From an uncultured bacterium (GTDB taxonomy: Bacteria > Bacteroidota > Bacteroidia > Chitinophagales > CAIODY01): a stretch of DNA of 64,000 nucleotides. The translations under genes and the position numbers were made by a program. Within the stretch, counting starts at the first letter, position 1, and each line of letters starts with the position of its first letter. The DNA lies in contig CAIODY010000043.1 of assembly GCA_903857255.1 (NCBI GenBank), positions 82,334 through 146,333 on the forward strand. The letters are read 5' to 3'. The notes below the pieces were generated by a model. The model was not told the DNA's origin and ran no database searches. It saw only the letters and a program-made list of their open reading frames with translations. Shown here in pieces: positions 34,530 to 54,226 of this stretch.

Positions 34530-35168
34530 TCAATTTTTCATCCATTTCCAAATCATCGAAGCCAATATTGCACCGATGATGGGTGCAAAAATATAAATCC
34601 ACAAACTATTCAAATTGCCTGAAACTATTGCTGGTGCAATACTTCGAGCTGGATTCATAGATGCACCGCAAATTGGTCCGGCAAACATTGCCTCTAATAA
34701 AACTGTGCCACCAATGGCAATGCCAGCCATCACACCCACTTCTTTCGAGCCTTGTGAAGTGAATAAAATTACGAGCATTAAAAAAAATGTAAGCAACAAC
34801 TCTAAAACAAACGATTGCAACACAGAACCAGCAGGCATTGTAGCACCCAAAGAAATATTTTCAGGAAACAATACCTTTAAAACCATTGATGCAGCTAATG
34901 CTCCGGCAATTTGTGCAACGATGAAAGGAAAAATCTGTTTGGTTGGAAAAAGTTTCGCAAAAGAAAATGCAATAGTTACAGCAGGATTAAAATGTGCGCC
35001 CGATGTTTCGCCAAAAGAATAAATCATGGCAGTTACAATCAATCCAAAAGTGATGGCAACGCCTAGGTGTCCTATACTTCCATGCGTTTGTTGGTCGATA
35101 ATTATTGCACCAGTACCACAAAAAATCATCGCAAAAGTGCCGATAAATTCGGCTGCGTATTTTTTCAT
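34530..35168 (-). CDS. MIP/aquaporin family channel in ars operon (AqpS-like context)
   Basis: Two NPA boxes: SGAHFNPAVT and GASMNPARS; six TM segments; stop of arsC and start of this gene adjacent. Confidence 0.92.
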   Translation of the reverse strand: MKKYAAEFIGTFAMIFCGTGAIIIDQQTHGSIGHLGVAITFGLIVTAMIYSFGETSGAHFNPAVTIAFSFAKLFPTKQIFPFIVAQIAGALAASMVLKVLFPENISLGATMPAGSVLQSFVLELLLTFFLMLVILFTSQGSKEVGVMAGIAIGGTVLLEAMFAGPICGASMNPARSIAPAIVSGNLNSLWIYIFAPIIGAILASMIWKWMKN

Positions 35169-35603
35169 TTATTCCTTTTCTACTTCTTTAATAAAATTTA
35201 AAACGGCAGCTTTTATTTTATCTCGAACCTGACGAGTAACGGCTAATTTTTCTTCGTGTGTGCCTGTTAATGAAGATGGGTCGGTAAAACTCCAATTGAT
35301 TTTTTTGTGAACGCCAGGAAATATTGGGCAACGTGCTGCACTGGCTTCATCGCAAACCGTTACCACATAATTGTACAATCTACCTTCTTTGAAAAAATCG
35401 AAAACGGCGTTGGTTTCGTTGTGTGAAATATCAATGCCTTCTTCTTTCATTACTTCAACGGCTAATGGATTGAGTGTGCCTTTTTCAAGCCCTGCACTTT
35501 CTACATGAAATTTGTCGCCGCCTAATTGTTTTAAATAAGCTTCTGCCATTTGACTTCGAGCTGAATTGTGAATACACAGAAATAAAACTTTCGTTTTGCT
35601 CAT
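35169..35603 (-). CDS. arsC: Arsenate reductase, low-molecular-weight phosphatase (thioredoxin-type) family
   Basis: VLFLCIHNSARSQMAEAYL P-loop (CxxNSxRS) and VTVCDEASAARCPIFPGVHKKINWSFTDPSS. Confidence 0.93.
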   Translation of the reverse strand: MSKTKVLFLCIHNSARSQMAEAYLKQLGGDKFHVESAGLEKGTLNPLAVEVMKEEGIDISHNETNAVFDFFKEGRLYNYVVTVCDEASAARCPIFPGVHKKINWSFTDPSSLTGTHEEKLAVTRQVRDKIKAAVLNFIKEVEKE

Positions 35604-35633
35604 GATTTTATGTTTTTGAATTTGATGAATTGA

Positions 35634-36104
35634 TTAGCAACAACCACCGCCGGGTGTGCAACAAGATGCGCCTTGTTTTACATCGGCTAAATTGAGTTTA
35701 TATTTTTCGGAATCAACGCCGCAAACTTCTGCTGCAAGGCATTCAGTGTACTTGTTGATTAATTGAAAATGATTGCCATTGAATTCAACCGCATATTTGC
35801 CAATGGTGTTGGTTTGATATTCGGCTTCTATTTCAAAATCGGCATTGCCTGTAATGAATGCTGATTTGTTTAAGATGTCAGAAATTTTTGACGCAGTTAA
35901 TCGGTGATTGACATCTTCGGCTACCCAGATTTGAAAAGAGATTAATTTCGAGATTCGTTCTTTGCCGCCACAATCAATAAAGTGTTTGTTGATTAAACCT
36001 ACTTCGGTGATATGAAAATGTTGTGGAACGCTTGTGTTATCGGGCAATAGGATAGTAATGTCGTTGACAGATTCAATTGCTTTTTTAAATTCGGAATATT
36101 TCAT
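35634..36104 (-). CDS. DUF6428 family protein with C-terminal Cys-rich tail
   Basis: MKYSEFKKAIESVNDITILLPDNTSVPQHFHITEVGLI...; C-term GASCCTPGGGCC; start placed at 36104. Confidence 0.8.
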   Translation of the reverse strand: MKYSEFKKAIESVNDITILLPDNTSVPQHFHITEVGLINKHFIDCGGKERISKLISFQIWVAEDVNHRLTASKISDILNKSAFITGNADFEIEAEYQTNTIGKYAVEFNGNHFQLINKYTECLAAEVCGVDSEKYKLNLADVKQGASCCTPGGGCC

Positions 36105-36120
36105 TTCGTTTAATTTTTGA

Positions 36121-36453
36121 TTAACAACAGTTAGGTTTTTGAGAATTTGTTTTTGTAAAAAACTTATTGAATGTTTTTTCAAATCGCTCAAAGGTTTCGT
36201 AATTGATACAATAGCAGGAAGAAGTACCATCTACTTTACCTTTTATCAATTCGGCTTTTAATAATTCTTTTAAATGTTGCGAAACGGTAGATTGCGCCAA
36301 CGGCAATACCTCTACAATTTCGCCACAGATGCAGGTTTCACGTTTGGCAATTTCTTTTAAGATAGCCACACGAGCAGGATGGCTGATGGCATTGGCAAAA
36401 TCTGCCAACTCATTTTCCTTTTTTGAAAATTCTTCTTTTTTGTTTTGAGCCAT
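36121..36453 (-). CDS. arsR: ArsR family transcriptional regulator
   Basis: [48 protein letters not shown]; CxC in the metal-binding helix. Confidence 0.92.
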
Positions 36454-36553
36454 TTACTTAATCTTATATCGCAAATATACGATAAAGCATTTTGAATTTC
36501 AAAATCAATCTTTGAAATTTCTTTTTCAATAAAAATGTTGGAGAGAAAACGAA

Positions 36554-39060: not shown

Positions 39061-40203
39061 CTAACAAGCTTTTTTTCGAAAATTTTTCAAAACATCTTCA
39101 TAATGCTTTTCATACACGGGTAATATTTTGCTCAACTCAAATTGTTTAGCTCTTTCCAAAGCATTGAGTTTGAATTCTTGCAGCATTTGTTCATTGCTTA
39201 ATAAATCAATCGCAAAGTTGCTCATCGCTTCCACATCACCAACATTGGCAGTGAAGCCAGTTTTGTTGTGTACATTCACTTCGGGCAAGCCACCAGCATT
39301 GCTACTGATAACAGGCACCATACAAGCCATGGCTTCCAAAGCCGCTAAACCAAAGCTTTCATATTCGCTGGGCAATAAAAATAAATCGCACAAGGCTAAT
39401 AATTCTTCCAATGCATCTTGCTTTCCTAAAAAACGAATATTGTCCCAAATGCCTTGTGTACGGCACATTTGCTCGATGTGATTTCTTTCAGGGCCATCAC
39501 CAATCAACAATAACTTGCTGGGGATTTTTTTCAACACATTTTCAAACACAGCCACTACATCTTCCACACGTTTTACTTTTCTAAAGTTCGACGTGTGAAT
39601 CAAAATCTTTTCGCCGTTGGGTGCAATGGCTTTTTTGAAATGTTCTTTATTGCTTTTTTGAAATCGTTTTAAATCAACAAAATTGGGGATTACTTCAATC
39701 GGTTTGGTGATGCCAAAAGTAGCAATGGTTTCATTTTTTAAATGTTCGGATACGGCAGTAATACCATCTGATTCCTGAATAGAAAAAGCAACCAAAGGTC
39801 GGAAGGCTTCATCTTTGCCCACCAATGTAATATCAGTACCATGCAATGTGGTGATGTATGGAATGCATTTATTTTTTGAAGCTAAAATTTTCTTCGCCAT
39901 GTAAGCCGCTGCTGCATGTGGGATAGCATAATGCACATGCAACAAATCCAGATTTTCATTTTCAATCACATCTACCAATTTGCCCACCAATGCTGATTCA
40001 TAAGGTGGATAATCGAACAACGGATAATTATTCACCGTTACTTCATGATAGAATATTCTTTCGTGAAACGATTCTAAACGTGCTGGCTGTTTGTAAGAAA
40101 TAAAATGAACTGAGTGTCCTTTATCAGCCAAAGCTTTGCCTAATTCAGTAGCTACAACGCCGCTTCCGCCATAGGTTGGATAACATACAATGCCAATTTT
40201 CAT
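39061..40203 (-). CDS. bshA: N-acetyl-alpha-D-glucosaminyl L-malate synthase BshA
   Basis: [39 protein letters not shown]4 motifs [30 protein letters not shown]. Confidence 0.95.
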
Positions 40204-52012: not shown

Positions 52013-53008
52013 ATGTACGGAAACGGATATACATCGCCCGAAGAAACAGCTAAACAAAAGCCCGACCCTTTAGCTGGTGAGGATTTGCAGCAATTGGCAT
52101 TGTTTGAAGAACGCATTACCCATGGCGAAAAAATTGAACCACAAGATTGGATGCCGAAGGAATATCGCCGACAATTAATCCGTATGATTGAGCAACATGC
52201 ACACAGCGAAGTGATTGGTGCATTGCCCGAAGGTACTTGGATTACAAGGGCTCCGAGCTTTAAACGCAAATTAGCTTTGATTGCAAAAGTGCAAGACGAA
52301 ATTGGTCATGCACATTTATTATACAACGCTGCTGAAACTTTAGGCAAAAGCAGAGAGGCAATGATTAATGATTTGTTGAGCGGCAAAAGCAAGTACAGCA
52401 ATGTGTTCAACTATCCTGCCACCACTTGGGCTGATGTAACTGTGATTGGTTTTTTGATTGATGGTGCTGCCATTGTAAATCAAGTCATCAATGCTAAAGG
52501 CTCTTACGGTCCATATTGCAGAGCGTTGGAAAGAATTTGTTACGAAGAAAGTTTTCATTTAAAACAAGGGCATGATGCGTTGGTGCATTTAGCAGTTGGC
52601 ACAAAAACACAACGAGCGATGTTGCAAGATGCATTGAATCGTTGGTATCGTCCGATTATTCATTTTTTCGGACCAAGCGATAAAGCCAGTGTTCATGGCA
52701 CTTTGCTGATGAAGTGGAAAGTGAAAATGGCAAGCAACGATGATATGCGAAATCAGTTTCTTGACCAATACGTTCCAAAAATTCGTGAACTTGGTTTAGA
52801 TTTTCCTGACCCGAAATTGAATAAAAATGCTGAAGGCATTTGGGAATTCAGCGACCCGAATTGGGATGAATTTTTTGCTACCATTAATGGAAACGGACCT
52901 TGTAATGCAGAAAGATTAGCAGTTCGTCGTTGGGCAGAAGAACACGGCAGATGGGTGCGTAAAGCGTTGATGAATCCAAGCCAAAAGCAGGTTTTGCCGT
53001 TGTCGTAA
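52013..53008 (+). CDS. paaA: 1,2-phenylacetyl-CoA epoxidase subunit PaaA
   Basis: [55 protein letters not shown]...[16 protein letters not shown]. Confidence 0.95.
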
Positions 53009-53030
53009 ATTTCAATTAATCAAAAAATCA

Positions 53031-53062
53031 CTTGGCGTCTTTGCGCCTTTGTGAGAAAAAAA
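53031..53062 (+). repeat. Intergenic repeat copy between paaA and paaB
   Basis: cttggcgtctttgcgcctttgtgagaaaaaaa. Confidence 0.75.
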
Positions 53063-53068
53063 TATTGC

Positions 53069-53437
53069 ATGAAAAGTTTTGACCCAAGAGTTAATAGAAT
53101 CAACCCCATCGAGGAAAAGACCGAAATGAATATCGGTGAAGCATGGGAACCGTATGAAGTTTTTCATCAAAAAAAACGTGGCGACCATCACATTCATGTG
53201 GGTAGTGTGCATGCGCCAAATGCAGCACAGGCTTTGCTTTTCGCTAAAGAACAATATGGCAGAAGACAAAATTGTGTAAACATGTGGGTGGTGCGAACTG
53301 CCGATGTAACTCAATTTCAGTATGATGATGCTGATATTTTTGAAACAGCCATTGACAAAGAATATCGCGAAGCGTATGGCTTTAAAGTGAGAGATAAAAT
53401 CAATGCTTATAAAAAACAACAAACAGAATCAAAATAA
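53069..53437 (+). CDS. paaB: 1,2-phenylacetyl-CoA epoxidase subunit PaaB
   Basis: WEPYEVFHQKKRGDHHIHVGSVHAPNAAQALLFAKEQYGRRQNCVNMWVV; ATG at 53069 preferred to the 53051 GTG, which lies in the repeat. Confidence 0.93.
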   Translation: MKSFDPRVNRINPIEEKTEMNIGEAWEPYEVFHQKKRGDHHIHVGSVHAPNAAQALLFAKEQYGRRQNCVNMWVVRTADVTQFQYDDADIFETAIDKEYREAYGFKVRDKINAYKKQQTESK

Positions 53438-53440
53438 AAT

Positions 53441-53468
53441 TCTTTGCGCCTTGGCGTGATAAAAAATA
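53441..53468 (+). repeat. Intergenic repeat copy between paaB and paaC
   Basis: tctttgcgccttggcgtgataaaaaata. Confidence 0.75.
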
Positions 53469-53473
53469 ATTAA

Positions 53474-54226
53474 ATGACACCTGCACTTTATAATTTTATT
53501 TTAAAAACAGCCGATGACTGTTTTATTTTAGGGCACCGAAACAGCGAATGGACGGGCTTCGGACCGTTTATGGAAGAAGATATTGCCTTTGCTTCAATGG
53601 CGCAAGACAAAATTGGTCATGCTTGGTTATTGTATAAAATGCTGGATGAAAATCCAGCGGCGGCAGAAACATTAGCTTTCAAACGAGCAGAAAAAGATTT
53701 TAAATGTTGCCACTTTGTTGAGCAACCAATTGGCGAATACGATTTCAGTTTGATGCGGCATTTTTTATTTGACCATGCCGACCAATTACGTTATGAAATG
53801 TTGATGAATAGTAGCTTTGAACCATTGGCGCATTTTGCAAAAAAGTTTAAAGGCGAATTAAAATATCACACCATGCATGCTGATACTTTTATTTTGCAAC
53901 TCGGCAATGGTAATGAAGAGAGCAAAGCCAGAATGCAATCGGCATTGAATTTTTGTTTACCGTTGGCTCTAGGAATTTTTGAAGCATACGAAGGAGAACA
54001 AGAAATTATCGCACAAAATATTTTTGCTGGCGAAAAAGTTTTACAAGCAAAATGGGTAGGAAAAATTTCACCCATCATAAAAGATGCAGGACTTAAAATG
54101 CCTGATATAAATACATTACAAGCTGTTAATGGTGGGCGACATGGATTTCATTCCGATTATTTGCAGCCGCTTTTGAAAGAAATGAGAGAAGTGGTAGATG
54201 CATTTCCTGATGCAACAGAGTGGTAA
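53474..54226 (+). CDS. paaC: 1,2-phenylacetyl-CoA epoxidase subunit PaaC
   Basis: ADDCFILGHRNSEWTGFGPFMEEDIAFASMAQDKIGHAWLLYKML...ELKYHTMHAD. Confidence 0.94.
   Translation: MTPALYNFILKTADDCFILGHRNSEWTGFGPFMEEDIAFASMAQDKIGHAWLLYKMLDENPAAAETLAFKRAEKDFKCCHFVEQPIGEYDFSLMRHFLFDHADQLRYEMLMNSSFEPLAHFAKKFKGELKYHTMHADTFILQLGNGNEESKARMQSALNFCLPLALGIFEAYEGEQEIIAQNIFAGEKVLQAKWVGKISPIIKDAGLKMPDINTLQAVNGGRHGFHSDYLQPLLKEMREVVDAFPDATEW

Follow-up and report, generated by a model that had tools for sequence, protein, structure and literature searches.

An ars operon of a Chitinophagales bacterium in which an AQPN-type channel probably replaces the arsenite pump

Yang et al. reportedly described in 2005 the aqpS-arsC system of Sinorhizobium meliloti, in which a MIP channel is said to replace ArsB beside arsC and arsenite leaves the cell downhill. 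To our knowledge, this system contains no DUF6428. Pommerrenig et al. are said to have found in 2020 that most aqpN genes sit within ars operons, and that arsenic and boron, but hardly any water, can cross the ancestral filter. According to the accounts of that study in PMC11316224, PMC7709012 and PMC10716587, plant NIPs are derived from bacterial arsenic-detoxification channels (Pommerrenig et al. 2020, doi 10.1111/nph.16217). The FAAR filter has been reported in Physcomitrella NIPs and in an algal NIP that does not carry germanium (PMC10716587, PMC7709012). It is already known as the early NIP filter. In a survey of 2015, 18 MIPs were found in ars operons, each as the sole transporter (PMC4435449). 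The repressor ArArsR of Arsenicibacter rosenii was footprinted on the site TTTTATCGTAATATTGCGATCACAATC; it binds As(III) through C41, C80 and C82, with C43 being dispensable (PMC11868830).

The operon and its genes

The window, a stretch of 64,000 nucleotides from an uncultured bacterium of the Chitinophagales (Bacteroidota), contains four genes in the order arsR, DUF6428, arsC and MIP, all on the minus strand and spanning 36453 to 34530. The features are as follows.

36468-36483, minus strand: predicted ArsR operator, ATCGTATATTTGCGAT, at -30 to -15 relative to the arsR ATG
36121-36453, minus strand: arsR, predicted ArArsR-type repressor of 110 aa with cysteines 41, 43, 80, 82, 109 and 110 (HTH_5, NF033788)
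35634-36104, minus strand: DUF6428 gene, 156 aa, with the tail SCCTPGGGCC (PF20001, 1.1e-51)
35169-35603, minus strand: arsC, putative arsenate reductase of the LMW-phosphatase fold, 144 aa, with C10 (CX5R), C84 and C92 (LMWPc, 1.9e-15)
34530-35168, minus strand: aqpN-like MIP gene, 212 aa, with the predicted ar/R filter F41-A160-A169-R175 (Pfam MIP, 5e-50)

The first-pass annotation had read four same-strand genes at 34530-36453, and all of them were found as stated, with agreeing Pfam families across the operon (HTH_5, DUF6428 at 1e-51, LMWPc, and MIP at 5e-50). The intergenic gaps are 16 nt between arsR and DUF6428, 30 nt between DUF6428 and arsC, and 0 nt between arsC and MIP, so that the ATG of the MIP gene, the last of the operon, directly abuts the arsC stop codon. 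The mechanical DUF6428 reading frame begins earlier, and the ATG at 36104 (MKYSEF) is the likelier start. The operon is preceded, at a distance of about 100 nt from arsR, by a gene of the rhomboid family, and hisS converges with the MIP gene 3 nt past its end. A search of the operon region against Rfam gave no match. The host MAG has a size of 2.97 Mb and is 96.9% complete, and its single MIP gene is that of the ars operon. The absence of ArsB and Acr3, which the same annotation had noted for the window, holds for the whole host genome as well: a transporter search that took in the ArsB, Acr3, ArsP and MIP families, in a MAG about 3% incomplete, found no acr3, arsB or arsP (ArsP-type permease) match, and no arsM match was found either.

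Two further observations were made in the window. The gene bshA for bacillithiol synthesis (TIGR03999, 1.7e-167) is located at 39061-40203, on the upstream side of the ars operon and 2.6 kb away from it, and bacillithiol may be a thiol buffer for arsenite in this host. The phenylacetyl-CoA epoxidase genes paaA and paaC were found at 52013-54226, with adjoining paaB-like and paaD-like ORFs, the last two being named by eye.

In related loci, the k-mers enriched upstream of arsR genes were ATCGTAATATTGC(A/G)AT. In the 1.25 Mb of loci that were fetched, the general operator pattern ATCGTAWWWTTGCRAT has 73 occurrences, compared with about 0.03 expected, and 67 of the 73 immediately precede an ArsR ORF; the window copy is the one at 36468-36483. 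This copy matches the central part of the site footprinted for ArArsR (PMC11868830) and, tested against the ATCGTAATATTGCGAT operator, differs only in the central A/T bases. It also includes TATATTTG, a Bacteroidota -7-like box; a simple promoter scan performed no better than on shuffled sequence. The cysteines of the window ArsR bear the same numbers as those of ArArsR (41, 43, 80, 82, 109, 110) and are conserved in 82-86 of 86 homologues. With the three ligand cysteines and the operator both present, the window ArsR is assigned by its sequence to the ArArsR type. The CxC metal helix proposed earlier is present as C41 and C43, although homology to ArArsR points to C41/C80/C82 as the probable As(III) site. 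A second arsenic regulon in the host genome was considered and rejected. The operator of the ars operon is the only intergenic exact match in the genome, the other exact match being inside a coding gene; the contig 13 matches sit inside coding genes, and the gene behind the C120 match, which has one mismatch, shows no obvious connection to arsenic.

The best NCBIfam match of ArsC is arsC_pI258_fam (1e-37); at 129 bits against a curated cut-off of 174, the protein falls short of the score set for a thioredoxin-type ArsC (TIGR02691). Despite this score, the protein has the CX5R motif and a redox cysteine pair, and C10, C84 and C92 are conserved in 98-100% of 43 homologues. Judged by its family and conserved cysteines, its activity would be arsenate reduction.

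DUF6428 is the least understood part of the operon, and it offers a testable question within a well-studied pathway. The loci inspected were L002-L031 and L195-L206, in addition to the window gene at 35634-36104. DUF6428 was located in ars clusters in 30 of 30 sampled loci, divergent short forms also lie within ars clusters, and 77 of 297 Bacteroidota genomes carry the gene. The invariant residues are H31, T33, E34, D44, C45, C122, C128, C149, P151, C155 and C156, which include HxTE and DC motifs. A C-terminal tail of the form C(C)xPxxxCC, or one closely similar to it, was found in all 57 DUF6428 ORFs and in 20 of 27 ArsM ORFs of the same loci, as opposed to 1 of the 6395 unassigned ORFs there, most of which are not genes. 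The predicted model is of fair quality (pLDDT 80.8), with a poorly predicted tail; a fold search of it against the PDB gave no significant match, and a literature search found no paper naming DUF6428. From the tail, the conserved residues and the context, it may be speculated that the intracellular role of DUF6428 is to bind or carry As(III). The more specific proposal is that of an arsenite carrier of Bacteroidota ars operons, whose C-terminal thiol tail would receive As(III) from ArsC and which would pass it to whatever exit the cell has, pump or channel; this is tentative and somewhat doubtful.

Bacteroidota ArsM proteins often end in CxPxxxCC, as DUF6428 does (L069:3969-4790, L068, L074, L079 and other arsM loci). 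In Deinococcus aetherius (L144:5206-6213), an ArsN2 acetyltransferase is fused to a DUF6428 domain near an arsR-arsC-aquaporin (FAAR) cluster. Additionally, metallophosphoesterase genes recur in Bacteroidota ars clusters (L207:4538-5311, L208:5574-7085, L074:3418-4266).

The channel and its filter

The filter was read by alignment with E. coli AqpZ, whose sequence was verified as 1rc2, and with rice NIP2;1 (Lsi1). The AqpZ residues F43, H174, T183 and R189 align with F41, A160, A169 and R175 of the window MIP, giving FAAR with Ala, and not His or Thr, at the H174 and T183 positions; the F-A-A-R filter that had been proposed from the letters alone is thus borne out. A160, A169 and R175 are invariant across 51 relatives. 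By comparison, the filter is GSGR in NIP2;1 and FHTR in AqpZ-like Bacteroidota proteins, and a FAAR pore is predicted to be wider than the water-only FHTR pore.

The first-pass annotation had further described the MIP as an aquaporin with an apparently widened pore. Its reading as a widened AqpZ was rejected, as the sequence is nearer to rice NIP2;1 (phmmer, 2e-44 to its structures) than to AqpZ (about 1e-25). The protein does not have the FHTR filter of an AqpZ water channel, and its score against the AqpZ model NF003838 is far below the cut-off (144 vs 256 bits). Plant NIPs are its closer relatives, ahead of both AqpZ and GlpF, and it has the FAAR ar/R filter with two NPA motifs. The AlphaFold2 model has a pLDDT of 92.8, and in Foldseek its top PDB matches are OsNIP2;1 with a TM score of 0.94. 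In a quick tree, in which the placement of NIP2;1/Lsi1 is uncertain owing to a long branch, the window MIP falls among FAAR channels and outside the FHTR group (support 98); nearby FAAR channels also neighbour arsR, DUF6428 and arsC. By its sequence and modelled fold, the MIP is an AQPN/NIP-type channel.

Neighbourhoods, and channel versus pump

A total of 98 close relatives were gathered by similarity to the window MIP. In 69 of these 98, an ars gene is found at most 4 kb away and in the same orientation, a proportion that describes this branch only. Among the neighbours were arsR (54), short arsC (34), long arsC (20), arsM (24) and DUF6428 (20), and acr3 was beside none of the 98. In the AqpZ-type control loci, 0 of 20 had ars genes within 4 kb. 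The survey together with this control excludes chance placement of the MIP beside ars genes. The 29 relatives without ars neighbours belong chiefly to a Polaribacter/Tenacibaculum clade, suggesting that the channel can serve elsewhere. Outside Bacteroidota, Cyanobacteriota and Deinococcota too have FAAR MIPs within their ars clusters, near arsR, arsH and arsC in Oscillatoria and within arsR-arsC-aqp in Deinococcus.

The relatives from Polaribacter and Tenacibaculum (L099, L109, L111, L113, L122, L135 and others) have WAAR filters, are mostly without ars neighbours, and recur beside DUF2911-like and epimerase-like ORFs, named by eye. A tie between the F-to-W change and the loss of ars neighbours (15/19 vs 14/79) was rejected; it rests mainly on one clade, and independent pairs gave no support. 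In Priestia megaterium (L142:3632-5639), the gene immediately after that for ArsL, the radical SAM protein of arsinothricin biosynthesis, encodes a FAAR aquaporin, and this channel may serve the arsinothricin pathway.

Among 297 Bacteroidota genomes, a close relative of the window MIP (E up to 4e-45) was present in 20, spread over 13 families. The pump gene acr3 was found in 2 of these 20 genomes and in 200 of the 277 others (Fisher p 4e-8, uncorrected for phylogeny and only a guide, as the genomes are related). This MIP type and acr3 are therefore nearly mutually exclusive in the 297 genomes. In the 30 sampled DUF6428 cassettes, acr3 was present in 16 and MIP in 6. The channel-type ars operon is widespread in Bacteroidota. 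These findings imply that a pump-free channel route is common across the phylum, and that pump and channel are interchangeable downstream of a single conserved regulatory cassette.

Proposed mechanism and known systems

The whole locus is read as an arsenite-inducible detoxification operon with an AQPN-type FAAR channel in the place of an Acr3/ArsB pump, a reading to which a probability of roughly 0.85 is given. ArsR would occupy the operator at 36468-36483 and be freed when As(III) binds its cysteines, as has been demonstrated for ArArsR. ArsC, from its family and conserved cysteines, would reduce imported arsenate to arsenite, and neutral As(OH)3 would then exit down its gradient through the channel. 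The cysteine tail of DUF6428 would, speculatively, bind or carry As(III) on the way. The substitution of a channel for a pump is suggested by the filter, the operon position, the absence of a pump and the mutual exclusion with acr3. A passive channel of this kind should give more protection from arsenate than from arsenite outside the cell.

Alternatively, the MIP might mainly carry another small neutral solute, such as boric acid, urea, glycerol or methylated arsenicals, with arsenic export as a side role. FAAR-type NIPs are said to carry boron too, 29 of the 98 relatives have no ars neighbours, and many related loci also contain arsM. Nevertheless, the place of the MIP as the final gene under ArsR control, its 0-nt distance from arsC, the mutual exclusion with acr3, and a host without arsM make such a role unlikely. 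An unrecognised transporter elsewhere, for instance an MFS carrier, with the MIP as an accessory or leak, would be allowed by an incomplete MAG and the four families searched, but is very improbable given the single intergenic exact operator match in the genome and the solitary state of all 18 ars-operon MIPs of the 2015 survey (PMC4435449).

Channel-based arsenic detoxification, as first proposed for this locus, accordingly stands as the best reading of an ars operon with a FAAR filter and no pump found in the genome, but the arrangement is not new. MIP-only ars operons were already known, the locus is a further case of the known AQPN channel type, and a claim on the channel alone confirms earlier work. 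The likeness to S. meliloti aqpS-arsC, a MIP beside arsC in the place of ArsB with no other arsenite transporter found among the families searched, is one of arrangement. With E. coli AqpZ, the window MIP has in common the fold, the NPA motifs and the filter F and R; AqpZ, however, is FHTR and water-selective, and the sampled AqpZ-type loci are not beside ars genes. The nearest solved structure, rice Lsi1 (OsNIP2;1, 7nl4/7cjs; TM 0.94, 40% identity), is a silicic acid carrier with a GSGR filter in contrast to FAAR. The arsRMC operon of A. rosenii, also of Bacteroidota, has the same ArsR C41/C43/C80/C82, terminal CC and operator core, but it uses arsM methylation and is without a channel or DUF6428 (PMC11868830). 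The arsR-DUF6428-arsC-acr3 operons of Bacteroidota begin in the same way and share the operator, with Acr3 and usually a longer ArsC where the window has the MIP and a short ArsC. Finally, the AQPN channels of ars operons share with the window MIP the NIP-type sequence and fold, the FAAR filter and the place in the operon; compared with these channels, as far as the available accounts of Pommerrenig et al. 2020 describe them, the window operon is distinguished by its Bacteroidota host, DUF6428 and ArArsR-type repressor.
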